A DNA stretch of 47,152 nucleotides from a virus: the IMG/VR virus record IMGVR_UViG_3300031566_000075, positions 1-47,152 of that record. One strand, written 5' to 3'. The notes beneath the pieces are model-generated. The model saw only the letters and a program-made list of their open reading frames with translations. It was not told the DNA's origin and did no database searches. Shown here piece after piece: positions 6,608 to 46,757 of this stretch (its first letter is position 1; the number at the start of each line of letters is the position of its first letter). Both the position numbers and the translations under genes were made by a program.

Positions 6608-9405
6608 AACTAACTGAATTTTATCCTGAAAAACAAGGTAGACCAGACAGCAAAGTAGCTCTGGATATGGAGTCTAGGTCATACATAGCTGCCTCAACTC
6701 CTTGGCAGATAACGGAGAGGCTTACTGTCCGAGGTGTGGCTTCCCTATCCACCAACAGCCAGGCTGTCTTGGTTAGTTTCCCATCAGAAACCGTAGCCGC
6801 TAATGGTATCTGGATTACCCTCAAGTCAACAGTTACCAGTGGGGACCTAACTGGCATAAGGTCAAGGGTATATGGTAATGCTGCCAGTTCTGGAGCCAAT
6901 GTTAGAGGTGGATACTTTGAGGCCAAGATGGCAGCAGCCTCCAAATACGTAGCCATGCTTGAAGGTTCCATATCCCATGCTGACTACTCGGCTGGTAGTA
7001 TAACGGTATCAGGAGATGTTAGAGGACTAACCTCCCATATCAGTCAAGGTTCAGGACTCAATGCCGCCAACCTATACGGACTACTTGTTAGTATCCAGAC
7101 AAGAGGTGACGAGACCATTACCTCCAATGATGTTGGTATCTATATAAAGAACGAGGCTGTAGGTGGTGCAGGTAGACAGATGGATGCTGCTGTCCTAATA
7201 GGTGATGTTAATGTAAGTGCTAGTGCCTTTACCTATGGTATAGATTTGTATGGTGCCAGTATTGCCACCGCTGATATTAGGTTTGCCAATGGTGAGACAA
7301 TAATAGGGTTAGATGATGTACCAGTAGATGCTGCTGCCACCTCCGCTATTAGTTCTAACTGGGCATACGACCATGTGGCGGCGGTTGACCCACATACAGG
7401 ATATAGGCTAGAAAGTGCTGACCATTCCCATCAAACTACTGGGGCAGAGGCAGGGCAGTTAGACCATGGGCTGGCATTGACATCGGCTTCCTTACTAGAT
7501 GATGACCACCCTGGATATAGGCAAAAGCATGGTATCCAAACAATAGGAGCAGTTACATTTGCTGATGCTACCCACATCCTTACAGTCGCTACGGGTATTA
7601 CTTACTGGTTTAATGGAACTCAAAAAGTAATATCTGGGAGTACCACCTGTGATATAGATACCTACGAAACCCTAACAGATAATACAGTTTATTGGTTCTA
7701 CTTTGATGACACCAGTGGGACACTGAAATGTTCTGATGAACTACCTGATTTCAAGGCCAATGTTTATGTTGCTGTTGTTTTCTGGAATGGAACAAATGGT
7801 GCTATCCATAGGGAACATCACGGTCATATCAGGAATCTAAATTGGCACGAATGGGCACACTTTACAGTAGGGTTGAGATATGAAAGTGGACTTACTTTAA
7901 CCTTACCAACTACAGATACTGATAATGCCCTACAAATAGAGAGTGGTATTATTTGGGATGAGGACTTAGAATCAGTAATATCACAGCAGACCACTTGCAG
8001 GATTGTTTATAAGGCAAGTGCATCTATCTATACTTGGGTTGCTTCATCCTTGCCCTATGCAGGTAGTGGAGTTCAACCACAATATCTGGATACTGATAAC
8101 TATACCCTTACCAATGTCGGAGCAAGTGATTTTGTCTGCATGTGGGTATATGCCACAAATGATATAGACAGACCAATTTACATAATCCCAACTCATGCTT
8201 CTACTGCCCACAATGTTATTGCCTTGGCGAGGGCAGAAGTGCAACCTATTTTGGCTGCTCTTAACCTTTCACCTGAGGTAAAACTTATCTACAGGTTTAT
8301 TTATAAAGGTAATGGAGAGTTCCAAGAATCAAACGATTATAGGCTAACACAAGCACTTCCCAGTGGAGGTGTTGCTACCGTTAATGCTGGTTCGGTTGCT
8401 TTTATACCAACTGGAGATATTGCGGCTACAACAGTTCAGACCGCAATAGAGGAACTTGACACCGAGAAAATCAAACATTCCTTGGCTACAGCAGTGAGTG
8501 ATTTCCTCATAGCTTCTGGTGTAGGAGTGTTTATTAAGAAAACACTGGCTGAAACATTGACCATTTTGGGTAAGGCTGTTGCGTCTGGACTTGCTTCCCT
8601 AAATGCTTCCTCAAAGGTAGTTCAACAGCCTGCTAGTATCTCCGACCACCTTGATGATACTGCTGGTGGGACTGATGCTGAGACTACCAAAGCTTCAACA
8701 TCCAATGTAGTATATGACCATACCGCAAACACAACTACAGCTCATGGAGCAGTATCGGCAGCCACAGCATCTAAGCTCGTAGTCCGTGATGCTTCAGCAC
8801 GAGCCAAGTTTGCTGCTCCTGCTGCTGCTGGGGATGCCCTGATAAAAGGAACAAGGGTAACTGCGGACGAACTACCAGCCGTTACTGATGAGTATTACTT
8901 GGTAGGAACTGGTGGTAATATGGAAGAAAGGGCTGTACTTGACATACCCACTCACGCTGCCTTATTTACTGGATTACACGGGCAGGCTATGGTTATAAAG
9001 CCTGATGATGAGGCTATAAATAATGATGAAGGCTTACAAAATGACGATGACCTAGTCATAGCAGTAGGGATTGATGAGAATTGGTTGGTAACTATAGTTT
9101 TATATGTAACCTCAGCTTCTGCAACACCCGATATAGATTACTTGTTCACGGTTCCTACTAATGGTGCTTTTCGTGGGTTAAGAGGCTTTGCTAACCCCGC
9201 CACTGCTGCTTTTAATTATGATTTAACAGCCGAGGGCACTATTGATGGAGTAGATAATACTACTAAAGTTGTTGCGATAATGGGTTATTATATAGGGGGA
9301 GACACAGCAGGTAATCTACAGTTACAGTGGGCACAGCATGTAGCAACTGTGGAGGATACTAAAATACTGACGGATTCTTTTATGATAGCTCATAGAATAG
9401 TTTAG
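6604..9405 (+). CDS. Tail fibre protein, 933 aa
   Basis: Start placed at ATG 6604, which overlaps the previous TGA as ATGA; an in-frame ATG at 6586 lies deeper in the upstream gene. Residues about 50-230 repeat the Gly-rich beta pattern found in the virion proteins at 954-2405 and 45372-46757. Near residue 290 is DHGLALTSASLLDDDHPGY, the L-DDDHP-Y motif typical of phage tail fibres. The C-terminal 130 residues form a separate beta-rich tip. Probably the receptor-binding fibre or its shaft. Two further proteins follow closely downstream. Confidence 0.7.
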   Translation: MKLTEFYPEKQGRPDSKVALDMESRSYIAASTPWQITERLTVRGVASLSTNSQAVLVSFPSETVAANGIWITLKSTVTSGDLTGIRSRVYGNAASSGANVRGGYFEAKMAAASKYVAMLEGSISHADYSAGSITVSGDVRGLTSHISQGSGLNAANLYGLLVSIQTRGDETITSNDVGIYIKNEAVGGAGRQMDAAVLIGDVNVSASAFTYGIDLYGASIATADIRFANGETIIGLDDVPVDAAATSAISSNWAYDHVAAVDPHTGYRLESADHSHQTTGAEAGQLDHGLALTSASLLDDDHPGYRQKHGIQTIGAVTFADATHILTVATGITYWFNGTQKVISGSTTCDIDTYETLTDNTVYWFYFDDTSGTLKCSDELPDFKANVYVAVVFWNGTNGAIHREHHGHIRNLNWHEWAHFTVGLRYESGLTLTLPTTDTDNALQIESGIIWDEDLESVISQQTTCRIVYKASASIYTWVASSLPYAGSGVQPQYLDTDNYTLTNVGASDFVCMWVYATNDIDRPIYIIPTHASTAHNVIALARAEVQPILAALNLSPEVKLIYRFIYKGNGEFQESNDYRLTQALPSGGVATVNAGSVAFIPTGDIAATTVQTAIEELDTEKIKHSLATAVSDFLIASGVGVFIKKTLAETLTILGKAVASGLASLNASSKVVQQPASISDHLDDTAGGTDAETTKASTSNVVYDHTANTTTAHGAVSAATASKLVVRDASARAKFAAPAAAGDALIKGTRVTADELPAVTDEYYLVGTGGNMEERAVLDIPTHAALFTGLHGQAMVIKPDDEAINNDEGLQNDDDLVIAVGIDENWLVTIVLYVTSASATPDIDYLFTVPTNGAFRGLRGFANPATAAFNYDLTAEGTIDGVDNTTKVVAIMGYYIGGDTAGNLQLQWAQHVATVEDTKILTDSFMIAHRIV

Positions 9406-14930: not shown

Positions 14931-15171
14931 CCTTATGCCTCCTCATGAATTTCCTAATTGTCCCTTTCTTATAATGTTGGTAATCCAAGTTGGTTATATC
15001 TAAACTTTCTCCATTAGGAGCCATTATCTCACACATTACTTCTTCATCCTCTAAGTCTTTTAGTTTTTGGTTTAAGCTACGGATGGTCTCGGCCTCCTGT
15101 GCCAATACTTCTGGGTCCACTAACAGAATAACTTTACCACATTGTTGACAAGTTATTTTATCAGGTATCAT
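14923..15171 (-). CDS. Small protein with one Cys pair and a helix
   Basis: 82 residues: MIPDKITCQQCGKVILLVD gives a single C-x2-C knuckle, followed by a coiled-coil-like stretch (ETIRSLNQKLKDLEDEE) and a basic tail. It may dimerise through the helix and share a metal site. Overlaps both neighbours by a few bases. Function unknown. Confidence 0.55.
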   Translation of the reverse strand: MIPDKITCQQCGKVILLVDPEVLAQEAETIRSLNQKLKDLEDEEVMCEIMAPNGESLDITNLDYQHYKKGTIRKFMRRHKDD

Positions 15172-15620
15172 GTTGTCCTCCCTATAGCCCTTTGAATGGT
15201 ACCACGACTGACTCCTGTTTCCTCAATTATCTCACTGTAGGTGAGACCCAAGATTCTGAGGGACCTTATCTCATCTTTAACATCTTCTAGCCTGGCTCTT
15301 GGTTTCGGGTTAGAAGGTATAATAGATAGTGCCTCCTCTGCTTTTTCAGCTTTAACGATTAGGTATGGTAGGACATTTGTTAGGAATAGCTTAACGCCTG
15401 GTGAGGCGGAGAATTGTAACTGGTAGCTAGCATTATATTGCCTATTCTTATTGGTATAAGAACTTACCCATGAATATATATCATAATCCTCTAGGAATAA
15501 CTTTATCTCCTCAAGTACGGGTAGGTAGTTTTGGGAAAAGCTAATCTTACAGCTTGACTTGGATTGCCTGACTATGGAACCTTCTCCATCAAAAAACCCA
15601 GCTAGATACGCCCATTCCAT
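15168..15620 (-). CDS. LAGLIDADG endonuclease with C-terminal helix-turn-helix
   Basis: 150 residues. Residues 5-14 read YLAGFFDGEG, a clear LAGLIDADG motif with the catalytic acidic residue; only one copy is present, so it would act as a homodimer. Residues about 118-148 (LGLTYSEIIEETGVSRGTIQ) form a resolvase-like helix-turn-helix that could add site specificity. Stand-alone inside the operon, not in an intron or intein that I can see. Likely a homing endonuclease. Confidence 0.85.
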   Translation of the reverse strand: MEWAYLAGFFDGEGSIVRQSKSSCKISFSQNYLPVLEEIKLFLEDYDIYSWVSSYTNKNRQYNASYQLQFSASPGVKLFLTNVLPYLIVKAEKAEEALSIIPSNPKPRARLEDVKDEIRSLRILGLTYSEIIEETGVSRGTIQRAIGRTT

Positions 15621-16358
15621 TTATACATCCCTCCCAAGTGCCCTTAGTATTTTCTTAGCACGGTTGATGCCTAGTTTTTTCTCACCTACAAGGGTCTCCG
15701 CTAAACCCTCTGGGTCCTGAATGATGGTATAGTAGGCTGTACCGTACCTATCAATCAAAGCCCTACCTATCTCCTCACCTATGTTGGCTCCTTTAATCCC
15801 CATCAAACTAATCACATGCTCATTGTATGGGTCAATCCTTATCTTCTCCTTGATGTACCGCTTGAGGGTAGTGTGTTCCAGTTTTTGGGAATTATTATAC
15901 AAAGCCACCAATGTATGAGCAGTTCCAATATAATGACATGTGTGGACAATAGTAATACCAGCCTTATCCAACTGACTGAGCCAAGCCTGAAACCCACCAT
16001 AGCTGGTATTATACTTATGGCTAGGTACCATAATCTTTCCTTTCTTGGCCAGCTTCCAACTCTGAACCGCCATCTTGAGTCCTGGTATGGGTTCACATGT
16101 TCCCTCATACAGTAGTATAGTTTCCTCAATCTCATTACCTAACTCCCTCCTTAACTGTTCCTCCACCTTGTCCATACCAGACAGTATCTCATCTATTTGT
16201 TTCCTCTCTACCTGGATACGGTGTCCATCACAAGCAAACCACATATAGTCTGCTATACCCATTGGCCCATGGTTGAGAGTCATCCTCTGAGTAGGTACAG
16301 ATTGTGATACCAATTCCTCAATTTGTATTGGTTCAAATGTATCCACCATAATAGTCAT
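15621..16358 (-). CDS. ERCC4/XPF-type structure-specific nuclease
   Basis: 245 residues. VDTFE near the N terminus (D6, E9), GIADYMW (D37) and VERKQ (E51-R52-K53) match the ERCC4 nuclease motifs ending in ERK. The C terminus has helix-hairpin-helix-like segments (VISLMGIKGANIGEEIGRAL and LGINRAKKILRAL). Members cut branched DNA; in a phage this could resolve recombination intermediates or debranch DNA before packaging. It abuts the LAGLIDADG gene and overlaps the HNH gene by four bases. Confidence 0.85.
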   Translation of the reverse strand: MTIMVDTFEPIQIEELVSQSVPTQRMTLNHGPMGIADYMWFACDGHRIQVERKQIDEILSGMDKVEEQLRRELGNEIEETILLYEGTCEPIPGLKMAVQSWKLAKKGKIMVPSHKYNTSYGGFQAWLSQLDKAGITIVHTCHYIGTAHTLVALYNNSQKLEHTTLKRYIKEKIRIDPYNEHVISLMGIKGANIGEEIGRALIDRYGTAYYTIIQDPEGLAETLVGEKKLGINRAKKILRALGRDV

Positions 16359-16774
16359 AGTTCCATTTCTCCAATTATCTCATCTAATGTATCCTCATCA
16401 ATACTAAGACAAAAGCTAATATCTGAGCGTGATAACTCGCTCTGTAGTAGCAATCTGAGTGCAAGTTCTTGAGTATGAGACATATTGTATAGCTTGTCTG
16501 TGTAGAGAGAATCAACCCAGCCAATGTCCTCACCGATTCTAACTAAGTGGACTAGTCCTTTGACCAAATACTCTTCAGACAATTTTCCTTTTTTATTCAT
16601 GTTACAATGGGTGCAACAAGCAACACCATTGGCAGTGATGGATGGACCATCCTTTGAGGCTGGTATTACATGGTCTATTTGGGTGGCAATATTACCACAA
16701 TAAATACAAACACCCTTATCCCTCAACATAATACGCCTAGCCATACCGACTCCAAAATTCTTACGGTGTGTCAT
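16355..16774 (-). CDS. HNH endonuclease
   Basis: 139 residues. C23-x2-C26, then QIDHVIPAS (D34-H35), an Asn-rich turn (ITANGVACC) and C54-x2-C57 give the zinc-stabilised HNH core. The C-terminal half is helical with an HTH-like stretch (LSRSDISFCLSIDEDTLDEI). It could be a free-standing homing nuclease or a DNA-processing enzyme; the location among replication genes, not beside the terminase, favours the former. Confidence 0.85.
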   Translation of the reverse strand: MTHRKNFGVGMARRIMLRDKGVCIYCGNIATQIDHVIPASKDGPSITANGVACCTHCNMNKKGKLSEEYLVKGLVHLVRIGEDIGWVDSLYTDKLYNMSHTQELALRLLLQSELSRSDISFCLSIDEDTLDEIIGEMEL

Positions 16775-17868: not shown

Positions 17869-18051
17869 TTAAAAATCTGTCTGCCAAGGCCTGTTAGTAG
17901 GCCAGCCTCGTAAATCATAGTCCTCGTCAATGATTATTTCATCGGTGACTTTAATATCACCATCACCAAATACACCCTTGTAGAAATCTTCATCACATAA
18001 CAGTACCATCTCGTTGCCATCCATGTCCTCGTACAGGACTAGTTTATTCAT
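17869..18051 (-). CDS. Small acidic protein, 60 aa
   Basis: Its ATG overlaps the last base of the upstream nuclease gene. Very acidic (YEDMDGNE, CDEDFYKG, IIIDEDYDLRG). No domain recognised. Position between the nuclease and the Sak4-like ATPase suggests an accessory to recombination, or a DNA-mimic-like inhibitor given the charge; neither is shown. Confidence 0.55.
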   Translation of the reverse strand: MNKLVLYEDMDGNEMVLLCDEDFYKGVFGDGDIKVTDEIIIDEDYDLRGWPTNRPWQTDF

Positions 18052-18941
18052 TATCCACCTCCTTTTTCAATCAGTCCCTTACTACAATACATAGCCACCT
18101 CACAAAAGCTTCGGCATCGGACACCATCCCAACACTCACGGTTATCACATGGAGTAGTACATGACCCAATAGTCAATGCCTCGTCTAGGTTCTTAGCTTT
18201 AATATGGAAGAATGTCTTGACCTCATTATTATCCAGCCTCTTAACTGGTACCATATAAGTATTCCTCTCTATACCCCTTGACCTGGCTACGGCTAGTCCA
18301 CCATCCCTAACCGTGATTTGTATTTGCATCCTACCTATAGTCAGTCCTCTCTCCTCTAACATTACCCGGTAGCGGTTAAGTTGTAGCTCCGTATCATGAT
18401 TGTCAGCCTCCTGAGGCATCTGTTGGAACACAGTCACCATCTTGGGTGAGCCTACTGCTCCCCACTTACCTCCCCTCTTATACACTTCACCGGATGGGTC
18501 AGGTTTCTTGCCAGCCTCCACTATACCAAGGACCTTGGCTACTCTGTATGAACCCCATGTTTTATAATCGGTAAGGGTCCAGCCACCATTATCTGGCTCC
18601 AGCAAATCAAAGATGTCCCTGTCCTCATCTGTGAGTGCTATCTCGGAGGGTAGGTTAAGGGTCTTGGCTATATCACCCAACTGTTGGTGGTGCTTGGTAC
18701 CTAATAGGGCAAAGGCCATACCATCTGGGTCTATAGCATAGGGTTGGGTAAGTTTAAGGAATGAATACATAGTCCCATTAAGCAACTGTGTGGTGGAGGG
18801 TGTGCCTGTCCACTCCCTCTCCGTACCTATCATGGTTAGGGTCGGAAGTGTCAGGCACCTATCCCCCATACGACATTTGGTTAGACATTCCTTAACTGGG
18901 ATTAGTTGTTGGTCTGGACATTTGAACCATTCAAGACTCAT
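18051..18941 (-). CDS. Cas4/RecB-like PD-(D/E)XK exonuclease with Cys cluster
   Basis: 296 residues, RBS AAAGGAGG. Nuclease motifs: GTKHHQQLG (H84/H85), LTDYKTWG (D125, K127) and QLNRY (Q187, Y191). Cys residues at 8, 19, 23 and 29 and at 261, 265, 270, 276, 280 and 286 could hold an iron-sulphur cluster and a zinc site, as in Cas4/AddB-like nucleases. Probably the resecting exonuclease partner of the Sak4-like protein. Its start lies directly downstream of the candidate structured RNA, which may be part of its leader. Confidence 0.8.
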   Translation of the reverse strand: MSLEWFKCPDQQLIPVKECLTKCRMGDRCLTLPTLTMIGTEREWTGTPSTTQLLNGTMYSFLKLTQPYAIDPDGMAFALLGTKHHQQLGDIAKTLNLPSEIALTDEDRDIFDLLEPDNGGWTLTDYKTWGSYRVAKVLGIVEAGKKPDPSGEVYKRGGKWGAVGSPKMVTVFQQMPQEADNHDTELQLNRYRVMLEERGLTIGRMQIQITVRDGGLAVARSRGIERNTYMVPVKRLDNNEVKTFFHIKAKNLDEALTIGSCTTPCDNRECWDGVRCRSFCEVAMYCSKGLIEKGGG

Positions 18942-18964
18942 TTGTTTCCTCCTTTCCTTTTAGT

Positions 18965-19392
18965 CTGCCCTAGTGGGCTTTCGGTCATCTACTCACCCAC
19001 TAGAGCTACCTGAGCCTTCCTCCCTAAATACAGACTTGGCGACCACTCTTTTCACCACTTGTTCTTCTAGCACCTAGCAACATCTCCAGTGGTAAGTATG
19101 TTGTTCATAGGCTCAAGTCTCCACCTCGGCTCAGGCTGTGCCAGCTGTCCCTCATCCAGAATTCCTTTTTGAATCACCCGAAGGTGCTAAAGCGAGCCGA
19201 ATGTGTTGCGGTAGCTGGCACTCTTGCTGGCTCCCACCACCTATTAAGCTGACACCCTGTAGGTTCCGCCCAAAGGCTAGTCTACCCACTTATTCCAGCA
19301 CCAGCAAGCTATTTAATTGTTAATCTACTCATCCCAACCCACCAGTAGTAGCTACCCTTACTCAGTTTCAACTGGTGGGCTGGGTCAATAAA
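18965..19392 (-). ncRNA. Candidate structured RNA (unclassified), about 430 nt
   Basis: A 451-base gap without a supported gene, between two same-strand genes. Read on the minus strand it contains: a 14-bp helix with one G-U (19371-19384 with 19333-19346); an 8-bp helix (19301-19308 with 19223-19230); a 9-bp helix (19213-19221 with 19138-19146) enclosing a perfect CACC-UUCG-GGUG tetraloop hairpin (19175-19186); a 6-bp helix (19098-19103 with 19079-19084); and an 8-bp helix at the 3' end (18996-19003 with 18970-18977). A 7-bp pairing of 19194-19200 with 19126-19132 would make a pseudoknot and competes with an 8-bp pairing of 19128-19135 with 19009-19016. No rRNA, tRNA, tmRNA or RNase P hallmark seen. 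Confidence 0.55.
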
Positions 19393-20142
19393 TTAAGCAA
19401 CTACATGGTAAACTTTATTCTCATCAATGGTTACCTTACCTGATGCCTCCATGCCGGTTAGGAATGACCCATCAATAAAGGTATTGAGGATTGTAGTATC
19501 CTGCTTTACTATCGGGTCAGTGAATACTACCTGGTGCCACTGTTGGACATTCTTACCGTCCAATAGGGCTAGGGCCTGCTGACTAGCACTTACCCCAGCT
19601 GGAGCAGGTGCCGCAGCCTGGGCAAGTACACCTGTGGCTACTGGTGCCGGAGCAACAGCCGCCTCACCGGTAATTTCAACTACTGTCCAGCAGTTTGTGG
19701 GTTTATCCGACCACTGGCCAGCCTCATCCCTATTCGGGACCATGTGTCCAGGAGTAAATTGTAGGTGGAGTTTCTTACCAAGCAGGTAATCCATATTCTT
19801 AGCTCCTGCCTGCGGTACATCTGGAGCCAGACCGGCATTTACTATCTTATCTATTGATGCACCAAAGTAACCCATCTTACTCTTGGCTTTGCTGGATGCA
19901 GATATATCTATCTGTGCTATGGGTGAGGTGTACGGCTCTATTGAATCAATGACCTCTACCTCCTCAAAATTGTAGAGAGCCACTAGGTAGGAGCCACTTT
20001 GTCCTGTCCTCATTTCTCCGGTCACGGACTTGAGTACACCCCAGAAATCTCTGAGTGGAGTACCTGTATATCCTTCCTCAAATCCTCTCACCATCAGTGA
20101 GGCTAGTACCTGTTCCTGTGTTAGTTGTACTGGGTCTGCCAT
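19393..20142 (-). CDS. Probable single-stranded DNA-binding protein
   Basis: 249 residues. A beta-rich N-terminal domain (about 40-150) with KMGYFGASIDK, LLGKKLHLQFTPGH and CWTVVEI could be an OB-fold. A flexible Ala/Pro linker follows (AVAPAPVATGVLAQAAAPAP, about 165-185), then a small C-terminal domain ending IDENKVYHVVA. Layout and neighbours (exonuclease, Sak4-like ATPase, helicase) suggest an ssDNA-binding or annealing accessory. There is no classical acidic SSB tail, so the call is contextual. Confidence 0.5.
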   Translation of the reverse strand: MADPVQLTQEQVLASLMVRGFEEGYTGTPLRDFWGVLKSVTGEMRTGQSGSYLVALYNFEEVEVIDSIEPYTSPIAQIDISASSKAKSKMGYFGASIDKIVNAGLAPDVPQAGAKNMDYLLGKKLHLQFTPGHMVPNRDEAGQWSDKPTNCWTVVEITGEAAVAPAPVATGVLAQAAAPAPAGVSASQQALALLDGKNVQQWHQVVFTDPIVKQDTTILNTFIDGSFLTGMEASGKVTIDENKVYHVVA

Positions 20143-34449: not shown

Positions 34450-36128
34450 TGGCTGAGATAGGACCACAGTTCTATATAGACAAATGTAAAACCCTAAAAA
34501 GTAGTTGGTCAACTAGAGCCAAGAAATTCAAGGAGTGGTATGAAATCTTACTCCTCACCGATGAGTTGGAACAGGAGGGCATGGAGTCAGTCGTCACCAA
34601 TGACCCTAGAACTGGTTATAACCTTGCACGCCATCTCCTCACTACCATGGTTATAGCAGATAAGATTCCATCAGAAACTCTCCCTCCTGAGTTTGTTCCT
34701 GCAACCAGTTACCTGGAGAGTTTTACATCAAAAAGATGGTCGGAGCAGGAGAAACGGTATCGTTCAATGGGTAGACAGTCTTGGCTTGGTGAATTTGTCT
34801 CCTGGCTTCTAGCCACTGGCTGGTATTCAGTATTCTCTATGGTAACCGAGAAGGAAATCTGGGCTGAGGTTTGGTCACCTGCTGATTGTTATCCTGGATT
34901 TGGCCTAGACGGATTGGCAGAACATGCCCATATATATACACTATCTGCTGCGGCAGCAAGGAAGAAGTTAAAAGCCATGGGTTGGACAGTAAGACGTCCA
35001 CCTACTGATGACGTAACCATATATGACCATTGGGGTTTTGACACAGATGGTGATGTGGTCAATGGTGTGGTAATGGATAACGAGTTTGTTAAGAGACCAG
35101 TTAAGGATATTCCATTATCCAAACTGGGTATACTCCCTGTATTTTCATCTCCGGCTGGTGGACTCCCTGATATGGGTAGCATTGATGGACTAAAGAACAA
35201 GTGGCAGCAGCATTATGGAGAATCCTTTGTGGGTACCAATGAGGACCTTATCCTAAACTACAACAAGATGAGGAGCTTCATGCAACAGGCAGCTAGGACG
35301 GCCGCCCAGCCTCATTGGTTAGAAACATCTTCTGGTGATACACCCATAGCCACAGATACACTAATGAGTAGATGGGGTTCTGTTCTTCATGGTCAACCTG
35401 GTGAAGATGTCCGACCATTACAGGGTGTACCTATCCCCGTAGAACTTACCAATATTCTATTCCATTACCAAAATGAACTTCAGCGTGGTATGTTTCCTGC
35501 CGCTGTGTTTGGTAACGTCCAACAGCAAATATCCTATCTGGCCATGGCTAACATAGCCACAGCATCAATGCAGACCCTAACTCCCTATAGGGATGCTGTT
35601 AAGGGTATGAGAACTGACCTAGATAACTATTGGACAGATATGATAGTCATGAATGGATTTAGGCCCTATGGATTTAAGCTACCCAACAACATGCCTCCAC
35701 GTGAGGATAGAAGATTTGATGTTGATGTGGATATAGAGATTCCTGGACTACTGGTCCAAAAAGCCAACATAGCCAGAATAATGAATCCTAAGTTCAGACT
35801 TCCTGAAGTCTGGATAATTGACCGAATGTTCCCTGAAATTAAAAATGCCTTAAAGGCCCAAGCAGACATCCGTGCTGAGGATGCTATGATGGACCCAGAC
35901 GCTATCAAGGTAGATGCCATTCTTGGATACAGAGAACAGGCTAGAATATTCCGAGAGGCCAGAGATATTCCCAAAGCAGAGTTATATGAGAAGCTAGCCA
36001 AGAAAAAAGAGGCTGAGTTGGATATGGTGCAGCAACCGAAACAACCCACACCCGGTACAGTACCAGCGGAGGGAGAATTCCTCAGAGAATTAGGTGGTAT
36101 TCCAGCTGAAGGAGGTACCCGTGCCTAG
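34449..36128 (+). CDS. Portal protein
   Basis: 559 residues, ATG in TAATG overlap. Features: NLARHLLTTMVIADKIPSE, a long central crown/wing region, QNELQRGMFPAAVFGN around the expected tunnel helices, and a helical C terminus (YREQARIFREARDIPKAELY). Size and layout fit a P22/T7-style or generic phage portal. It sits at the vertex for DNA entry and exit. The end overlaps the giant protein start by eight bases. Confidence 0.75.
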   Translation: MAEIGPQFYIDKCKTLKSSWSTRAKKFKEWYEILLLTDELEQEGMESVVTNDPRTGYNLARHLLTTMVIADKIPSETLPPEFVPATSYLESFTSKRWSEQEKRYRSMGRQSWLGEFVSWLLATGWYSVFSMVTEKEIWAEVWSPADCYPGFGLDGLAEHAHIYTLSAAAARKKLKAMGWTVRRPPTDDVTIYDHWGFDTDGDVVNGVVMDNEFVKRPVKDIPLSKLGILPVFSSPAGGLPDMGSIDGLKNKWQQHYGESFVGTNEDLILNYNKMRSFMQQAARTAAQPHWLETSSGDTPIATDTLMSRWGSVLHGQPGEDVRPLQGVPIPVELTNILFHYQNELQRGMFPAAVFGNVQQQISYLAMANIATASMQTLTPYRDAVKGMRTDLDNYWTDMIVMNGFRPYGFKLPNNMPPREDRRFDVDVDIEIPGLLVQKANIARIMNPKFRLPEVWIIDRMFPEIKNALKAQADIRAEDAMMDPDAIKVDAILGYREQARIFREARDIPKAELYEKLAKKKEAELDMVQQPKQPTPGTVPAEGEFLRELGGIPAEGGTRA

Positions 36129-39100
36129 ATTATTACCCTTAGGACCAAAACCACCCACACAGTTTGGGCCTCCTCCACCTGAACCTCCTGAGCTTGAATT
36201 TACTATTGAGGATTGGGAAAAGAAAGCCAAGGAACATATGGAGTCTGCCCAAGCCAGTGAGCAGAGGTTACAGGAACTTGCTGTCCAATATGCGGATTTG
36301 ACTCCGCCACCACATCCAATAAAAACATTAGTGCAGATGCTTGGTATAGTTACGGCTGGACAGGCCGCACAGGAGGCACAACAACGGCAGAGGTTGGCCA
36401 ACCAACTTAAAACTGAGATAGCCAATACCGAGTTGGCTGTAGAACGTGATGACTTCTATGCTAGGTTATACACCCAAGTTCCTATAGTAATTTCTAGTGG
36501 TGGTATGACCACAGCAGAGGAAGTATTATCCATACTAAAACCACCAGAAAACTTCACACCTGAGGAATTAGATGAGGTTGGAGATATTATTGGTAGTATG
36601 GTAGAGGCTTTAACTGGTGCTCCACAACTACCTGAACTTGCTGCCGAGGCTGAACCCGTAGAGTTACCTGGGTTGGTGGCTCCACCCACAATGATTGAGG
36701 CTCCACCAACAACTATCCACTCCCTAACTGTGGATGCAATAGTACGTTCTGTTACTGCTCCTACGGCTCCTCCCTCCGTCATGTCTGAGGAGGAGTGGGT
36801 TCAATTCATGATAGATAGTGGACAGATTAGTAGTAAGGCAGACTTAGATACCATAGAGTATTTGGAGGACCAAGCTGCATCTATTGTGGATGAATGGCAG
36901 GAACGCAGTAATATGCTGGATACATACAGGTCTGGTATAGCGGAAATGCCTGATTACAAATTGGTTGATGTATTGAAGGAGATGGTAGTTCAACCTGGTT
37001 TGGCTTTGATGGAAATTGCTGGTATGTACTTTGAGCATGTGTCTGCTCCGTTAGCTGGGTTGATATGGAAAGATGTATTCCGCATCCGAGATATAGATGT
37101 AGCCTACCAAAACTATAAGAAAACTGACTCCACCTGGCAAGCCCTAGGTCATGCTTGGGAGGAGTGGGATGCTCCAGGTGAAGGTGCCGCAGAGTGGATA
37201 TTGAAGTATATGCTTATGGAAGGACTTACTGACCCATTGACTTATGTTGGTTGGGGTATAGCCACCAGAATAACCAAACCTCTAGGCTCTGTAGGTAGAT
37301 GGGTAGGTTGGGCTGAACGTGGCATAGCTGAGGTTTTTGACCTTCCATTTGATATGATTAAGGGTATAGTAAGGAGACTACCCAAAACTGTTGGACAAAA
37401 TGCTACCATTGCCATGACCAAATCCCTACAATATGTAGATAAGGCCATGACCCAGCGTTTTGGTAAAGCTGTTTGGCAAATGACCATGAGGGAATGGGAT
37501 GAAGGTGCTGAGGCATTTGTAAAATATGCCCTAAAGAATCCACAGTTGGATAATGTAGCCGCACGGGCTGGGCGTGAACTCCTAAAACATGTTCCTGTAA
37601 CTGAGAGAGAGGTATTGTCGTGGGCAACCAGACTAGGTACTACACTTACTCCTGACCAGGTAACCAGACAGACTGTGGCTGCTGTTGACAATATATTTGA
37701 GGACTTTTTCTCCAAGGTTGGTGGTGGTAGAAAACTATTAACCAACAAAGAGGCAGCGGATGAATTAGTTAGAGTATTGGTGGGTAACTTTGATGATGCT
37801 ACCTCAGTGGTTGCAGGTAAGTTATTATTAGAGAGGAGCCGAGGTATCATCAATAAAGCCTTATCCTTCGGCCAATCTAAGACAACCTTCAGTGCCATGA
37901 GGCAGTTGGGTAGGAGTACAAGGAAACTCTTTATAGATGCGGAGGATAGTGTAGTAGCTTTGGCTATGAAAGAAATGGGTAGAACAGCCACACTACTTAC
38001 TAAGATTCCAATTAGAGTCCAGAGAGTTTGGGCAAATGGTATAGATAAGTGGATAGTCCGTCCCTTTGCTGAGTCCTATTTAACTTTTGCTTTATATGGT
38101 CCCATGAATGTGGTAGAGGATGTTATCCGAACCACACTAGGTGGAGTAATGCCTGGTGGTAAGAGTGGTGCAAATTTTGCTCGTAAGTGGGCTGGAGTAA
38201 GCTATGACCCAGCATTGGTTAGTGAAAGGTCTATCTCTGAAACCCTAGGTACCATAGCAGCCAAGGAGTCTGGTGAATGGAATAACTGGATTCTCCAACT
38301 TGGTGGATTAGCCAAAGGCTTTGGTGATAAGACCTTTGATATTTTGGTGAGGAAGCCAGGTCAAATTGGTATGGCTATGAGGACACATTTTGTGGACGCC
38401 AAGGCCACCCAGATACTAAAGCAGATTGGCGGAGACCAGATGGAGAGGTTAGCCCGTACTGGACCCGATAAGCTAATGGGTGTCACCAACAAACGTATAG
38501 TTAAAAACGTACAGCAGGTAGCTATGGAGCTAAAAATGAATGGGTTACCTGATGCTATCCGTGCTGCTACTGATGATTTCACTAGAGCCAAGATAATAAG
38601 GAGAGAGGTAGATGATATATTACTGGAGCACCCTGACCTACCTAGACCAGTCAGGGACTTTGTAATGAGGCAGAATGATGAAGGTGTGTTATTTCAAAGT
38701 GTTAGGAAAGTTCCAAACTGGGAGGGAGTCACATTTACGGATATTCCCACTAACCTAACTAGAAAGATTGAGGCTATGGTAGATAATCTACCAATAGATA
38801 TCAAGCTACGGGTAAAATCTATTAGTATAGATTCTACCATTATTGCTCCAGCCGTATGGCATCCAGATGGTAGTATTGTCTTTAGGAGTATTGATGATAT
38901 TACACCAGAGTTACTATACCATGAAATTTTCCATGATATAGCCTTTAGGGTTGGAGATAAGACACAATTTTGGGCTGATGCGGCTAGGTCTATTGGTTGG
39001 GATGAAACTGCTGATGAAATATTGGCTAAGGGTATTACTGGTGATATAGCTCTGCTTAGAGAACACCCCATGACAGGTATAGTTCTTAGTGAGGCCATGG

Positions 39101-42100
39101 CTGATAAGTTTGGTGATTATGCTCTTGGTAAAGAGGTTGGTACTAAGTGGTACAATTTCTTTTCTAAGCATTTCCCTAAGGTATCACGTCCTGAGGACTC
39201 TATAAATATAGTTACTAGGGAGGCTAGTTCTTTGCTCTTAGATGATTTTATAGCTTCACCAGAACGAGCTACAGCACAATACAAGCAGTTAGCAGACCTG
39301 CTAGTACAATTTGATGTACGCAATCCCCAAGAAATGGCCCAGCTTATCCAGTCCCTTAATCTTATGTCCTCCACATATGGAGCTACTCCTAAGCAGATTT
39401 TGGGTAGGGCTGTAGAAAGGACTAGGGGATTACCCTTTGCTGAGAGAAGGGTTGCTATGGATAAAGCCCTAGACTCTATTACCCTATTTACTGAGAGGGC
39501 TGGAGTTGATATAGACAGGGTGGTGCAAAAGATTAAGTTGGATATACCCAACATATATAAGGGTAATCAAGCCTATATATCCAGCTCCGAGAATCTCTTT
39601 AATCTCCAAACAGCCAAGAGACTAAGGGCTGGAGAACTAGGTGAGATGACAAATGCTTGGAGACATGACTTCTTTGCGGCTGCTAGTCCAGCAGACTTAA
39701 AGAGTTCCAGTTTCTGGGATGACTTCTCCCGTGAAATAAATGGTAGATACCATGCCAGCAATATTGAGATGGCTGACTTTGATGGTATGATTAAAAATGC
39801 CATAGATGACTTGGATATAGCAGGTGGACTCAAAGCCAGACAACGGCCAGCGATTAAAATTGTGGATAGAGAGTTGGCTCCAAATGATGTAGCCCAGTTA
39901 ATTGGTGCTAGAGGAGATGATATATCCAGAGGGTTGATGGATGTGATGACATCCCAAAATGATAAGGATATGTTTACCTCCTACGTGATGGCTCATGTTA
40001 AACCAGATGATATAGGATTCAGCAAGGAATCAATAGGTAGAGTATATGACCAGATAGCTCTGAGCCTCCAGGTAGACCCAAAGAATATGAGCTGGGTGGC
40101 TGGTAAGCAAATGGAACTAGAGGCTGTGAGAAGGGACTTACACTCCCTATATAATAGTAAGCTATTACCAGATGATGAGATAGTGGCTATTAGGAAATAT
40201 TTTAATGATACGGCTGATGCTGTGGATAATGTGATGTATGAGGTTGGTGATATTCCTCAGGGTTGGGAGATTATGTATAGAGGTTCCTTGAAGGGAGAGA
40301 AGGGACTTGCGAAGGGTGACTTTCCTGGAGTATTCCTTTCAACCAGTGAGGCTGGGGCTGCCCAATATGGGACTGCTAGGAGATATTATATAAAACCTGG
40401 TCAGAGAATTTTGGACTTGGATGATGACGTTGTTGGTGGATTAGCTGATGAGTTTGCTAGGCTAAACCCAGCTGAGGCTAGTTTAATGAAACTACCAGAT
40501 GACTTGTTCCTATTTCCTGACAAGAAGTGGGTTAGGTTTTTGGGAGATAAGGGCTATACCGGAACATCAGTCGGTGCTGATAGATTTATATTCAACCCTA
40601 AAGATGTTAGGGTTAGGCCACCAAAGGCCCCTGTCAAACGGTTGAAACCTGAATTTACCAATTACAATGACCTCCGACAACAGGCCATGGATGAAGCCCA
40701 CAAGTGGTACTATAAGGAATTCACCGACTACACCAATGCCAATGCCTTTGATGCTACCATGAAAAGTATCTATCCATTTTGGACATATGAGTCCCAAAGG
40801 TGGTTTTGGTTACCCCGTTCATTCATTCGTCATCCTGGCACCTTCACAGCCTTTGAACGTTGGCAAGATAATACTGATTATGGTTATGTCCATATCCCAG
40901 GAACCAGCGTTGACATCAATCCATTCAGAGGTACAATATATGGTACCATGTCCACTCGCCTAGCCAGGAGGGACTACCCAGAATACTATGACTCCCTAGG
41001 TGCAGCCGGAGATGTCATAGAGTTCAGTGACTTCCTCTCCCGTTATGGCTTCTACCCTGGTGCCCATATTGGAGTACCCCTAACCATACTTGGTGGTGTA
41101 GAAATGCAGTTTGGTGAGGCTATGCCATCCATCATCAAGACTCCACTAGATGTCCTTATAGCTACATTTCCTGATAATGAATCGGTAAGGTGGATATCAG
41201 ACCATCTATTTGGTGATAGGTTCAGAGACTACCTAACAATACTTCAAATAAATAGGCGTGGTGGAGATGGCTCCCTTATATTCTCCAAGACTAAAGAGGG
41301 TGTAGCCCTCACTGAGGAGGAAGAACAATTAGTAGCTGATGCTAGGAGAGAGGTAGGCTGGTACAGTGCAGGATTTGAGCAATTTGCCATGTTCCGTATG
41401 CGGACAGATGAGCAGTACCAGATGTATGAGGAAGCTAGTAAGGTCATAGAGGAAATGACTGGCTTCACCCCAGACCAGCAGGAGTGGCTAAGGCAACATG
41501 GTCACCGTCTCTGGGATATGGTAGGTGGTATGTCTCCCAGCGAGCAGGCTATATTACAAGAGATGGATTACTATAAATGGGTTGGACAAATCAGACCACT
41601 CCTTCCCGGTAAGCAACAGGAAATACTTAACAAGATAGAGGTAGCCTGGAACCAAGTAGAGAAATATGGAGACCAGGTACAAACCACCAAACTCCAGCTA
41701 CAGAGAGAATTTCTATCAGGACAACGTGGGCCAGATGACTACCTATCTCAGCTATTGGATACTTACAATAAGCAGGGTGAATTTATAGATAATAAGATTG
41801 AGGAATATCCCCTCATGGATTTGGATAACCGTGCCGAATATTATAAGAAATACGGACAACCTCAGCCAGTCCTACACCCAATGAGGGAATTGATTAACCT
41901 TTACTTCTCCATAGAATTGTTGGAGATAACTGACCCTGAAACAGGAGAAAAGCATAGAGACTGGGATAACTTCTGGGCCCAGAGACAGGCCATTGAGGAT
42001 GCTATACCTGATGAGTTTAGGTCAGAGTGGGATGACTTCATCTCTAGGAACTCCACCCGCCTAGAGCAAATCAGGAGAGATGTATCCTCCACCTATTTCC

Positions 42101-42426
42101 GAACCTATAACAAAATCTGGGAGAAGATACTATCCACCTACAGTGATGAGGAACAGGCACTTGTTAATGAGTACCTATACCTTGAACGGACTGGACAGCA
42201 GTTAGATAGACAGGCCCAAATCAAGGCCACCATAAGTGCCAAAACCAACAATATGCTTATATCCAGTTTCCGCTCCGAAGTATCAGATGCCAAACAAGCT
42301 CTTAGGTATGCTAACCCACACCTAGATGCCTGGTTATTCTATTGGGGGCGAGTTTCAACGTTTGTAACACCACAGGCCGAGGAAACCTACAAACAAATAG
42401 CAGCCGATACTGGTAGACAAATATAA
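36121..42426 (+). CDS. Giant polyvalent virion protein with zincin motif
   Basis: Start set at GTG 36121, five bases after AAGGAGG; about 2,101 residues. N-terminal 250 residues are Pro-rich and coiled-coil-like. Around residue 934-938 is LLYHEIFHDIA, an HExxH zinc-protease motif, with a possible third ligand in EAMAD (E991). Residues about 1385-1445 (MYRGSLKGEKG, GVFLSTSEAGAAQYG) resemble an ADP-ribosyltransferase-like fold. Residues about 1551-1600 (YPFWTYESQRWFWLPRSF) and a long helical C terminus match modules of phage polyvalent or internal virion proteins. Following the portal, it is probably carried in the head and ejected into the host, as T7 and N4 internal proteins are. Confidence 0.65.
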   Translation: MPRLLPLGPKPPTQFGPPPPEPPELEFTIEDWEKKAKEHMESAQASEQRLQELAVQYADLTPPPHPIKTLVQMLGIVTAGQAAQEAQQRQRLANQLKTEIANTELAVERDDFYARLYTQVPIVISSGGMTTAEEVLSILKPPENFTPEELDEVGDIIGSMVEALTGAPQLPELAAEAEPVELPGLVAPPTMIEAPPTTIHSLTVDAIVRSVTAPTAPPSVMSEEEWVQFMIDSGQISSKADLDTIEYLEDQAASIVDEWQERSNMLDTYRSGIAEMPDYKLVDVLKEMVVQPGLALMEIAGMYFEHVSAPLAGLIWKDVFRIRDIDVAYQNYKKTDSTWQALGHAWEEWDAPGEGAAEWILKYMLMEGLTDPLTYVGWGIATRITKPLGSVGRWVGWAERGIAEVFDLPFDMIKGIVRRLPKTVGQNATIAMTKSLQYVDKAMTQRFGKAVWQMTMREWDEGAEAFVKYALKNPQLDNVAARAGRELLKHVPVTEREVLSWATRLGTTLTPDQVTRQTVAAVDNIFEDFFSKVGGGRKLLTNKEAADELVRVLVGNFDDATSVVAGKLLLERSRGIINKALSFGQSKTTFSAMRQLGRSTRKLFIDAEDSVVALAMKEMGRTATLLTKIPIRVQRVWANGIDKWIVRPFAESYLTFALYGPMNVVEDVIRTTLGGVMPGGKSGANFARKWAGVSYDPALVSERSISETLGTIAAKESGEWNNWILQLGGLAKGFGDKTFDILVRKPGQIGMAMRTHFVDAKATQILKQIGGDQMERLARTGPDKLMGVTNKRIVKNVQQVAMELKMNGLPDAIRAATDDFTRAKIIRREVDDILLEHPDLPRPVRDFVMRQNDEGVLFQSVRKVPNWEGVTFTDIPTNLTRKIEAMVDNLPIDIKLRVKSISIDSTIIAPAVWHPDGSIVFRSIDDITPELLYHEIFHDIAFRVGDKTQFWADAARSIGWDETADEILAKGITGDIALLREHPMTGIVLSEAMADKFGDYALGKEVGTKWYNFFSKHFPKVSRPEDSINIVTREASSLLLDDFIASPERATAQYKQLADLLVQFDVRNPQEMAQLIQSLNLMSSTYGATPKQILGRAVERTRGLPFAERRVAMDKALDSITLFTERAGVDIDRVVQKIKLDIPNIYKGNQAYISSSENLFNLQTAKRLRAGELGEMTNAWRHDFFAAASPADLKSSSFWDDFSREINGRYHASNIEMADFDGMIKNAIDDLDIAGGLKARQRPAIKIVDRELAPNDVAQLIGARGDDISRGLMDVMTSQNDKDMFTSYVMAHVKPDDIGFSKESIGRVYDQIALSLQVDPKNMSWVAGKQMELEAVRRDLHSLYNSKLLPDDEIVAIRKYFNDTADAVDNVMYEVGDIPQGWEIMYRGSLKGEKGLAKGDFPGVFLSTSEAGAAQYGTARRYYIKPGQRILDLDDDVVGGLADEFARLNPAEASLMKLPDDLFLFPDKKWVRFLGDKGYTGTSVGADRFIFNPKDVRVRPPKAPVKRLKPEFTNYNDLRQQAMDEAHKWYYKEFTDYTNANAFDATMKSIYPFWTYESQRWFWLPRSFIRHPGTFTAFERWQDNTDYGYVHIPGTSVDINPFRGTIYGTMSTRLARRDYPEYYDSLGAAGDVIEFSDFLSRYGFYPGAHIGVPLTILGGVEMQFGEAMPSIIKTPLDVLIATFPDNESVRWISDHLFGDRFRDYLTILQINRRGGDGSLIFSKTKEGVALTEEEEQLVADARREVGWYSAGFEQFAMFRMRTDEQYQMYEEASKVIEEMTGFTPDQQEWLRQHGHRLWDMVGGMSPSEQAILQEMDYYKWVGQIRPLLPGKQQEILNKIEVAWNQVEKYGDQVQTTKLQLQREFLSGQRGPDDYLSQLLDTYNKQGEFIDNKIEEYPLMDLDNRAEYYKKYGQPQPVLHPMRELINLYFSIELLEITDPETGEKHRDWDNFWAQRQAIEDAIPDEFRSEWDDFISRNSTRLEQIRRDVSSTYFRTYNKIWEKILSTYSDEEQALVNEYLYLERTGQQLDRQAQIKATISAKTNNMLISSFRSEVSDAKQALRYANPHLDAWLFYWGRVSTFVTPQAEETYKQIAADTGRQI

Positions 42427-44157: not shown

Positions 44158-44883
44158 ATGCCTTATGATGCAAACCTAGTTTTACGAGGAAAGTACGGTG
44201 CTACCGTGGCTGCGGCAGCGTATGTGGACTTAGACTCCAGTGATGCTGCGGCTACGGGTCTTGCAGTTGCCTCCACCGTTTCCTTTAATGATGACGGCAA
44301 CAGTGTGGTTGATTTGGGTGACCACGGTACTGGACCACTTGGCATGGACTGTATAATAATCCAACATGACCAGGCTACATCCTACACAAATTATGCCGAT
44401 TATGTGATTGAGGATTCAGACCACCTAGCTGGTGGTTGGCAGTCCTTACTTACATTCCCACGGGTATATGCTTACATAATAGAGCTAACCCTTACCTGCA
44501 CTACAGCTTATGTTCCATCAACCGATATTGGCCAGGTAGCCACAGAGACTTCTGATGTTGGAGTAATCCGTGCAATTAGCCGGAAACTGCTAACTGTTGG
44601 TGGAATTGGTAAGCTATTTGTAGAAATGCAGGGTTCTGGAGACCTCTATGACACCGCCGACCAAGCGGTAACAACCACAACTGGAACTGGTGCAGGTACC
44701 ATGATTGGTGTAGGCAGAGTTCCTAACTGGTCGTCTGGCGGATTGACTATGGTTCGTAGGTTCTCCACACCCAAACGATACATCAGACTTGGTGCTGATG
44801 CTCCTAATGGTGGGAACTTTGGTGACGTAGATGTCCTGGTCACCGGCTCCCAACACAATCATGTCAATAACCTATACAGATAA
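44158..44883 (+). CDS. Head decoration-like protein, copy A1
   Basis: 241 residues, RBS AAAGGAGG. Starts MPYDANLVLRGKYGATVAAA, has DLGDHGTGPLGMDCIIIQ in the first half and TMVRRFSTPKRYIRLG near the end. The layout (short start, VDLG...G-GPL, late RYIR-- strand pair) recalls Bbp16-type capsid-stabilising proteins. It directly follows the major capsid gene. The incomplete copy at the left end (1-471) is its paralogue. Confidence 0.7.
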   Translation: MPYDANLVLRGKYGATVAAAAYVDLDSSDAAATGLAVASTVSFNDDGNSVVDLGDHGTGPLGMDCIIIQHDQATSYTNYADYVIEDSDHLAGGWQSLLTFPRVYAYIIELTLTCTTAYVPSTDIGQVATETSDVGVIRAISRKLLTVGGIGKLFVEMQGSGDLYDTADQAVTTTTGTGAGTMIGVGRVPNWSSGGLTMVRRFSTPKRYIRLGADAPNGGNFGDVDVLVTGSQHNHVNNLYR

Positions 44884-44894
44884 GGAGGAATAAA

Positions 44895-45356
44895 ATGCCT
44901 TTTGACGCTAATTTAGTTTTAGCCGATACAACCGCTGATTGGACTTATGCCAACCTTGTCACTCCCAATACCTATGGCACTCCAACCAGCACAACCAAAA
45001 ATGCTGGAGGCTTCGTAGTCATTGATACCTTGGCATTGGGTGGACTAGCAGCCAAGGGTATGTGTGCGGTATTTATTGCGGACGAAACAGCCAACGCTGC
45101 TGGTGACGCACTTACCCTAATAATTGAGGGTAGCGATGCCTCAGACTTTTCATCTGGACTAGAAGCTCTAGCAGCCTTTGGTGTGGACGGTGCAGTTGGC
45201 TCAGGTATCATAGACGGTGATGAGACACCATGTACCATAGTGAGGCTCTTCTCAACCAACAGACGGTACATCCGATGCAAAGCCACTGTCACTTCCGATG
45301 ATGACTTCCACACTTGTCAAGTATTCTTGGCTCCATGGGGATATGTAACACTATAA
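44895..45356 (+). CDS. Head decoration-like protein, copy A2
   Basis: 153 residues, RBS AAGGAGG identical in position to copy B2. Begins MPFDANLVLADTTADWTYAN and ends APWGYVTL, with GVDGAVGSGIIDGDETPCTI in the middle. Paralogous to 483-938; the sequences are closest at both ends and in this block, and differ in the 40-60 segment. Confidence 0.75.
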   Translation: MPFDANLVLADTTADWTYANLVTPNTYGTPTSTTKNAGGFVVIDTLALGGLAAKGMCAVFIADETANAAGDALTLIIEGSDASDFSSGLEALAAFGVDGAVGSGIIDGDETPCTIVRLFSTNRRYIRCKATVTSDDDFHTCQVFLAPWGYVTL

Positions 45357-45371
45357 AGGAGGAGGATTAAC

Positions 45372-46757
45372 ATGGCTCAGAATATTGAAGCCCTGACTGT
45401 AGCCAATGACGGCTACCTAACTGTCCGAACCAATGCTGGTCCTCCTACCAAGTTCCCTGTGATAGGTAGTGTTGCTTATGCCACCACTTTCTCTGCTGGC
45501 ATAGTGGTTAGTGGAGGTACTACTGGTGTAGCAATTAGTGGTACCACTACTGGCCTTACTTCTACTGACCCAATCACAGTAACCCTGACTGGTGAGACTT
45601 CCTCACATATAGGAATCACATCCACAATAGCCGCCTCTGCAACATACACAGGTTGGGCATTAGGGGTCTTTGGTACCACCACTCTATCAGGAACATTAGG
45701 TACTGTAGGCCAGGCTGCTGGTGGTATATTTGAATTAAACCTGGCGGCAGGCTTTGCTGGTGCCACATCTGGACTACTCGTTGGTGCTATGATTGGTGCC
45801 TACGCAAACGCTACTAGCGGTGAGTTACCTACAGCAGGTTTATGGATTGAGGCAATAGCTGGAGCAACTGTGAGCCTAAAGGCAAGTGGTGCCAACACAG
45901 ATATGCCTTTGCTTGCCTTAGTCACAAGTGGTGGAGGTGGTGTAGGAGGGAACATGGCCAGCCTTGCCATAGAATTTGGTTCAGAGATAGCTGGCAAGAC
46001 AGTTGGAGTCCTTACTGGTGAGATGTACTACCACCAAACAATACAATGTAAAGCAAATGGTGAGCTAGTATATATGCCTTTATCTACAACAGAGGGTACC
46101 TATACCACAGCCTATCCAATTATTACTTCATACAATGGTGACCCTTCAATATCAATAGGCACGGCTGCTCTTCCACTAACCACAGCAACAACTGGTATGT
46201 CTGCTCTGAAGATTTGGAGTGATACTACCATTGATGACACTGAGTATCATGTTCCCCTGTGGGTTACTTCAATCCTAAAAAAGACTGGCGGAGGCACTAT
46301 CTACGGAATCAGGGCACATACTGAACTCGGAGCTACTTTTGAAGCAGACGCATCTGGAACTCTTGTCGGTGTGCATGGAAGAGTCAGAAACCAGGGTACG
46401 TTGAGTAACTCTGGCACAATAATGGCTGGTGTGATGGGACAAGTTTTACATGGGACAGGCACCCACACCACAGTTTCTCATATTGCCTCCCTTTGGGCTG
46501 ATAACCAATTAAGGAGTGATGGTATCGCAGGTCAGCATGAGTTACTCTATATGACCAATAATAATTCTGGTGCTGGTGTTAGAACGATAGGTCAGGCAAT
46601 ATTCCTGTATGGACCCTATGTAACGAACTTTGTCAACTTTAATGGTTGCCAGACTGGTGGAATGGTGGTTGATGGTGCTGGGGATGCTGAAGCTAGGACT
46701 GGTAGGATTATGATTAACGTTAATGGAGATACAAGGTATCTCTACTACTATGATTAA
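45372..46757 (+). CDS. Beta-rich virion surface protein, copy A3
   Basis: 461 residues, RBS AAAGGAGGAGG. The first 30 residues parallel copy B3 (ALTV-NDGYLTVRT). The middle carries stacked Gly/Thr-rich beta segments (IVVSGGTTGVAISGTTTGLT) and GIRAHTELGATFEADASGTL. The end ASLWADNQL ... RYLYYYD again parallels B3. It was probably duplicated and then diversified; likely an outward-facing capsid fibre. Confidence 0.7.
   Translation: MAQNIEALTVANDGYLTVRTNAGPPTKFPVIGSVAYATTFSAGIVVSGGTTGVAISGTTTGLTSTDPITVTLTGETSSHIGITSTIAASATYTGWALGVFGTTTLSGTLGTVGQAAGGIFELNLAAGFAGATSGLLVGAMIGAYANATSGELPTAGLWIEAIAGATVSLKASGANTDMPLLALVTSGGGGVGGNMASLAIEFGSEIAGKTVGVLTGEMYYHQTIQCKANGELVYMPLSTTEGTYTTAYPIITSYNGDPSISIGTAALPLTTATTGMSALKIWSDTTIDDTEYHVPLWVTSILKKTGGGTIYGIRAHTELGATFEADASGTLVGVHGRVRNQGTLSNSGTIMAGVMGQVLHGTGTHTTVSHIASLWADNQLRSDGIAGQHELLYMTNNNSGAGVRTIGQAIFLYGPYVTNFVNFNGCQTGGMVVDGAGDAEARTGRIMINVNGDTRYLYYYD

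Follow-up and report, generated by a model that had tools for sequence, protein, structure and literature searches.

To our knowledge, few large RNAs of phages are known, and GOLLD and ROOL are the best studied among them. They are large ornate RNAs of phages and prophages without known function (PMC12286853). Like the RNA described here, they are long, elaborately folded and often associated with tRNAs, and the sizes are broadly similar, about 660 nt for ROOL and over 800 nt for GOLLD (PMC12286853) vs 140-630 nt here. On the other hand, the arms of the present RNA vary in number and order, a boxA leads it, no Rfam family matches it, and it is found in uncultivated phage contigs with Dehalococcoidia as probable hosts.

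Other comparisons concern transcription. The nut site of phage lambda consists of a boxA and a boxB hairpin bound by the phage N protein, and the put RNA of HK022, with two hairpins, makes polymerase resistant to terminators in cis without any phage protein. Here, too, a phage RNA carries a boxA-like sequence and/or hairpins near promoters, and antitermination is possible, but the arrays are far larger and more variable than nut or put. Phage tRNA arrays are likewise rows of stem-closed domains, and some arms of the present RNA have D-arm, T-arm or acceptor-stem features. However, most arms are not tRNAs, and the tRNA-like ones are degenerate or lack a usable anticodon loop.

The boxA of rRNA operon leaders resembles the one here in sequence and in place, as a short linear motif right ahead of a long structured RNA that is not translated (PMC5725501, PMC10250234). 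The letters are identical in 16S leaders of the probable host order, whereas the phage boxA precedes arms and protein genes rather than rRNA. The gamma-proteobacterial boxA consensus is GYTCTTTAANA (PMC5725501). 16S rRNA and CRISPR arrays are examples of long non-coding RNAs that boxA precedes and whose transcription it raises (PMC7862264), and its antitermination complex may also aid RNA folding (PMC10250234).

An earlier note, made from one phage locus, had proposed a new structured RNA there and suggested an Rfam search. In Rfam 15, which includes GOLLD and ROOL, no family matches the window (the whole stretch of viral DNA analysed, 47,152 nt) or twelve relatives at the gathering score, and the gap that holds the RNA, searched up to E = 10, returned only chance-level miRNA and snoRNA models. 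Group I and II introns, known ribozymes and riboswitches were rejected as candidates, as Rfam was empty of them for the window and the twelve relatives. A literature search covering few subscription journals found no description of this family. With its exchangeable arms and a boxA of host rRNA type, it forms a family distinct from GOLLD and ROOL, which are its nearest kind.

A gene-free gap and its predicted fold

On the minus strand of the window, an operon running from 20142 to 18051 is broken by a 451-nt gene-free gap at 18942-19392. A gap of more than 400 nt between two minus-strand genes had been pointed out at 18965-19392; it is indeed free of genes, but its lower limit is really 18942. 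The features, all on the minus strand, are as follows.

19393-20142: upstream gene, 249 aa, OB-fold ssDNA-binding-like ('SSB-like')
19333-19385: arm P0, long hairpin (19371-19385 with 19333-19346) lying between the SSB-like stop codon and boxA; from the fold and the helix list
19309-19323: boxA, UUAACAAUUAAAUAG, just before arm A; one mismatch to the Dehalococcoidia pre-16S rRNA motif
19223-19308: arm A, closing stem CUUGCUGG (19308-19301) with CCAGCAAG (19230-19223); from model R1 and covariation
19138-19221: arm B, closing stem GUGCCAGCU (19221-19213) with AGCUGGCAC (19146-19138); from covariation and model R1
19175-19186: CACC-UUCG-GGUG tetraloop hairpin inside arm B; from the sequence and the strand bias of tetraloops in the family
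19009-19135: arm C, closing stem CCUGAGCC (19135-19128) with GGCUCAGG (19016-19009); from the fold, helices and compensatory pairs
18967-19006: arm D, GCUCUAGUGGG with CCCACUAGGGC; from the fold and the helix list
18948-18960: ribosome-binding sequence of the exonuclease-like gene, AAAGGAAAGGAGG; from the sequence
18051-18941: downstream gene, 296 aa, Cas4/PD-(D/E)XK-type exonuclease-like

The names that the earlier note gave to the two flanking genes are plausible but weak. The upstream 249-aa protein (AlphaFold2 pLDDT 82) owes the label SSB-like to an OB-fold match alone, PrgE being the top Foldseek match (E = 1.9e-4, probability 1.0, low TM). The Cas4-like label of the downstream 296-aa protein is backed by PHROG 2139, an exonuclease (E = 3.3e-10), and by invariant cysteines at 8, 19, 23, 29, 265, 276, 280 and 286, but a structure search of the PDB gave no significant match.

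For the minus strand of the gap, the predicted fold has -157.9 kcal/mol (z = -3.6), a value that none of 100 shuffled sequences equals, and for the plus strand z is -2.15. The gap contains six perfect Watson-Crick helices of at least 8 bp vs a mean of 1.15 in shuffles, none of 200 reaching six, in agreement with the claim that random sequence rarely gives so many. Five of them close the consecutive arms P0, A, B, C and D. The sixth is an alternative 8-bp pairing, 19189-19182 (UAGCACCU) with 19075-19068 (AGGUGCUA), which links the interiors of arms B and C and would abolish the UUCG hairpin. That hairpin, reported earlier in the minus sense, lies at 19186-19175. The alternative pairing, also reported earlier, exists in the letters of the window, but we found no conservation evidence for it, nor for a pseudoknot suggested along with it.

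A conserved protein frame would have spoken for a gene in the gap. No sense-strand ORF of at least 50 aa lies within it, the sole ORF being antisense at 19138-19323 (+), and lengths vary widely among relatives, so a protein-coding reading was rejected. We looked for a promoter or an intrinsic terminator around the RNA in the window and found none; a discrete transcript would thus need processing. Incidentally, two short blocks at 8355-8423 (+) of the window weakly resemble array positions 296-318 (E about 0.06 and 2.6), which is probably a chance likeness.

Relatives, covariation and coding strand

Relatives of the exonuclease gene were absent from 50,697 phage records and, by profile, from 84,980 bacterial and archaeal genomes. 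IMG/VR contigs contain 41 loci that encode them. Cultured phages gave no relatives by protein, and a DNA comparison with them yielded just eight short matches at chance level (E about 6). Members of the RNA family come from dozens of uncultivated phage contigs, and their arms, about two to six per relative, differ in number, order and content. For example, the arrays of L066 and L067 finish with C and then A, not in the order A, B, C, D. The contig that carries L002, L028 and L032 holds a 77%-identical relative (L002) with a 348-nt gap past its SSB-like gene and matching closing stems; at the place of P0, L002 and L028 have a different, shorter hairpin.

Each arm type has its own pattern across the family. 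Arm A reads GCUUGCUGG-UGUCC-...-ACUAUCGG-...-CCGAG-CCAGCAAGC, arm B reads GCCAGCUA-CCCGAAAGGG-...-GUAG-...-CUAC-UAGCUGGC, arm C reads GCCUGAGCC-GA...GUA-GGCUCAGGC, and arm D is a G-rich stem. The interior of arm B diverges in the window, whereas that of the relatives carries CCCGAAAGGG, often with GUAGC..GCUAC; GUAG is present in 21 of 24 B interiors vs 11.7 in shuffles. Equivalents of arm D occur in L034, L039, L041, L055 and L070, and some are tRNA-like (L042, L044). As a family finder, the pattern GCYNAGCCTGAGCCGAG was rejected, with one true relative among 23 stretches. An exact 17-mer of arm B was found in 95 bacterial genome stretches, nearly all of them chance matches.

A covariance model (R1) was built from ten aligned relatives with the window excluded. 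In the 47-kb window it has a single match, at 19329-19136 on the minus strand (56.9 bits, E = 1.7e-15), and the window is one of the 22 phage records, out of 31, that it matches. Because the window and L002 supplied the motifs by which the relatives were chosen, this held-out test is strong, though not wholly independent.

Covariation, which the earlier note had named as a check, was found in the closing stems of arms A and B. Alignment A4 takes in arms A and B of 10 sequences; 94.1% of its cells are paired, and both sides have changed in 8 cells vs 2.5 in shuffles. Its covariation score is 0.171 vs 0.104 in shuffles, none of 500 being as high, and slid controls stay at or below 0.077. Alignment A5, made of 25 B arms, scores 0.174 vs 0.094, again with none of 500 shuffles as high, and 24 of its cells are double changes; since the sequences are related, these shuffle counts are not probabilities. 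RNAalifold recovers the same B stem unaided. Between L002 and the window, UAGCCAGCU/AGCUGGCUA stands for GUGCCAGCU/AGCUGGCAC in the arm B stem, compensated at two pairs. Helix C has single compensated pairs, U-A in L108, U-A in L066 and A-U in L039, with strands read by hand.

These changes bear on whether the arrays are degenerate tRNA genes and hairpin debris with no present function. Array content does vary, and a minority of arrays have tRNA-like arms with a malformed anticodon loop or degenerate T or D arms, as debris would. However, the stems of arms A and B are compensated, junction motifs are conserved (CCCGAAAGGG, and GUAG at the frequency given above), and boxA is kept in the same place, which makes this reading very improbable.

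The sense strand was distinguished by three measures over the arrays, with L050 and L061 excluded because their region limits are uncertain. Tetraloops (GNRA and UNCG closed by at least three Watson-Crick pairs) in 20 array regions number 18 in gene sense vs 1 in antisense, and shuffles give 5.4 (sd 2.3, maximum 13 of 300). Eleven sense loops are left when the conserved CCGAAAGG loop is set aside. GU mismatches outnumber AC in long stems by 31:16, and the mean folding z is -2.9 in sense vs -2.2 in antisense. This asymmetry in tetraloops, GU pairs and folding indicates that it is RNA of the gene sense, and not DNA, in which the element works. A replication origin, packaging site or recombination site could use inverted repeats as DNA, and such repeats are stable in either strand and adjoin replication and recombination genes here. 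Against such a site are the excess of sense tetraloops and of GU over AC, the occurrence of the element at several genomic positions, and a boxA count of 21 sense vs 1 antisense, so that we consider it the least credible reading. The proposal of a conserved structured RNA on the minus strand is thus borne out by R1, A4, A5 and the strand bias, and the existence and fold of this gene-sense RNA are well supported by sequence comparison.

boxA and the probable host

Many arrays have the motif UUAACAAYUGAAUAG ahead of them. Its core, UUAACA[AG], occurs in 21 of 40 array regions vs 2.1 in shuffles and 1 in antisense, and a clear boxA is missing from about half of the arrays. In five relatives the letters U-UAA-CAA of boxA include the stop codon of the SSB-like gene. 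Many Dehalococcoidia 16S leaders carry UUAACAAYUGAAUAG immediately before the 16S rRNA; that of L288 reads UUAACAAUUGAAUAG, an exact 15-nt identity with L034, L035 and L047. Both identity with a host rRNA leader and placement before an untranslated structured RNA, as expected of an rrn-type boxA, were thus found. By analogy with rRNA, we infer that the viral boxA may bind NusB-NusE.

Two metagenome-assembled genomes (MAGs) of Dehalococcoidia contain family members. One contig (L276), found through its arm B match, has a full array, and the other (L156) has an arm B upstream of a recombinase-like gene. L156 was the only 17-mer match retained, at 39.6 bits, because a coding match reached 30 bits and chance 17-mers stay at or below that. 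Both MAGs belong to one order, in which 2 of 84 genomes match; no other match was found in a 400-genome sample of the phylum. With these two and a third genome of the same order with the exact boxA (L288), that order of Dehalococcoidia (Chloroflexota) is the probable host, although a MAG binning error is conceivable. boxA and arm B would provide a sequence handle for recognizing Dehalococcoidia phages.

Our preferred explanation, held with middling confidence, is a modular phage non-coding RNA that is transcribed in the operon under borrowed rRNA-type boxA antitermination and probably acts in trans. The RNA would probably be transcribed within the replication-operon message of tailed phages infecting Dehalococcoidia. 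Ribosomes of the preceding gene come off the message at the stop codon; there or later, the host-rRNA-type boxA would emerge and could recruit NusB-NusE to polymerase as in rRNA synthesis. Antitermination would then carry transcription through the hairpin-rich, untranslated RNA and the following genes without premature termination. The RNA would fold while emerging, arms P0, A, B, C and D folding independently in a row, and the array, whole or excised from the message, would most likely act in trans as RNA. Arms are gained, lost or swapped from phage to phage, and a few of them are tRNA-like. In favour of this explanation are also the boxA copies behind promoters at other operon starts and the lone arm B copies described below, with a promoter in front (L121) or an intrinsic terminator behind (L107, L109). 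Counting against it are the arrays that have no clear boxA and the window's want of a promoter or terminator; moreover, arm interiors diverge fast and no obvious target emerges. As boxA ties the RNA to host rRNA synthesis, whether a phage borrows rRNA antitermination for a large non-coding RNA becomes a testable question.

Alternatively, boxA and the arms could act in cis on their own polymerase, like lambda nut or HK022 put, and let it read phage operons through terminators, with no trans role for the arms. boxA directly precedes the first arm, and in the same phages it also lies right behind promoters at other operon starts. Lone copies of arm B are suggestive as well. In L121 one lies behind a strong promoter, TTGACA-17-TATGAT, and upstream of terminase-like genes, and in L107 and L109 an intrinsic terminator stands between arm B and a scaffold-like gene (all gene names by eye). 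However, the two parts occur separately. boxA without arms is found shortly behind strong sigma70-like promoters (TTGACA/TATAAT-like) at other operon starts, namely L101 14840 (-), L035 1094 (-) and L067 477 (-), so these phages seem, by sequence, to use host-type boxA generally, and arms without boxA are found in the second copy of L121 and in L106. Moreover, the elaborate, variable and partly tRNA-like arms, with 200-600 nt, exceed the needs of known nut or put sites, and the arrays lie mid-operon, that of the window with no terminator behind it. We regard cis antitermination as the main rival, possible though not probable.

Genomic position, tRNA-like arms and processing

The earlier note offered two functions, a trans-acting RNA or a cis-regulatory leader of the exonuclease gene. 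The latter does not hold. At least two ORFs separate the RNA from the exonuclease gene in L002 and about 2 kb in L041, the RNA is placed behind an ATPase gene in L053 and L067, and a lone arm B stands elsewhere, ahead of late genes, for example a portal-like gene (named by eye) in L106. As the position directly upstream of the exonuclease gene is not constant, the RNA is not its leader. The trans-acting reading is the better of the two, and we infer trans action itself.

Some arms have parts of a tRNA. A D-arm-like GUGGCGGAAUNGGUAGACGC is present in arms of L042, L044, L053 and L067, and T-arm hairpins occur in L036, L042, L118 and L276 (4 vs 0.27 in shuffles). The first arm of the array in the L276 MAG contig (1037-1124, minus) is tRNA-Leu-like, scoring 39.5 bits with the Rfam tRNA model (cut-off 29); its acceptor stem is helix A, and its anticodon loop is short and malformed. 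The arms of the window showed no tRNA features against the full cloverleaf (RF00005), and across 17 records the tRNA family gave degenerate or unrelated matches only. The same genomic zone, or its vicinity, holds a degenerate tRNA at L036 6332-6375, one with an undefined anticodon at L071 7367-7446, tRNA-Tyr at L066 6605-6691 and tRNA-Gln at L108 10260-10335.

A bolder form of the preferred explanation is that this is a new RNA class, in which interchangeable junction arms and tRNA-mimic arms, made through the host rRNA antitermination route, would act in trans on the host translation or RNA machinery or serve as a decoy for tRNA-attacking defences. We put this forward tentatively and consider it rather doubtful.

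Excision of the array from the message would fit hammerhead-like cores near some arrays (L037, L050, L055 and L105). Near-complete type II cores, recognized by eye and not listed by Rfam, lie at L037 6950-7075 and L050 about 453-600, between the SSB-like gene and the array, in the order ACC-GAAAC, stem III, GUC, stem I, CUGAUGA-GGU. Partial cores in L055 and L105 were not accepted by Rfam, the L105 border having a weak Hammerhead_3 score of 20.9 bits. Type II hammerheads are known from bacteria, and prophage hammerheads may process long transcripts (PMC3088659). Where the array ends on its 3' side, just ahead of the gene after arm D, L105, L128 and L055 have CUGAUGAGGC behind a CCAGA..UCUGG-type hairpin.

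These cores, which adjoin some arrays, would also suit a cis-regulatory or mRNA-processing spacer. Its hairpins would set apart or stabilize stretches of the message, through RNase sites or protected 5' ends, and adjust the expression of the gene that follows. In some arrays the last hairpin is close to the ribosome-binding site of the next gene, e.g. CUCCCCUUCGGGGG in L035, L036 and L047. But the downstream gene varies, and what is conserved lies within arms A, B and C and not near the ribosome-binding site, so a spacer is an unlikely explanation.

Elsewhere in the window, gene starts are alike near both ends (483-2405 and 44158-46757; MPFDANLVLADTTADWTYANL at 483 and 44895, MPYDANLVL at 44158), which suggests that a structural gene cluster is duplicated. 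A 2110-aa ORF lies at 36094-42426. In the replication operon, ORFs at 15168-15620 (-) and 16355-16774 (-) have, by eye, LAGLIDADG-like (LAGFFDGEGSI) and HNH-like motifs and are possibly homing endonucleases.
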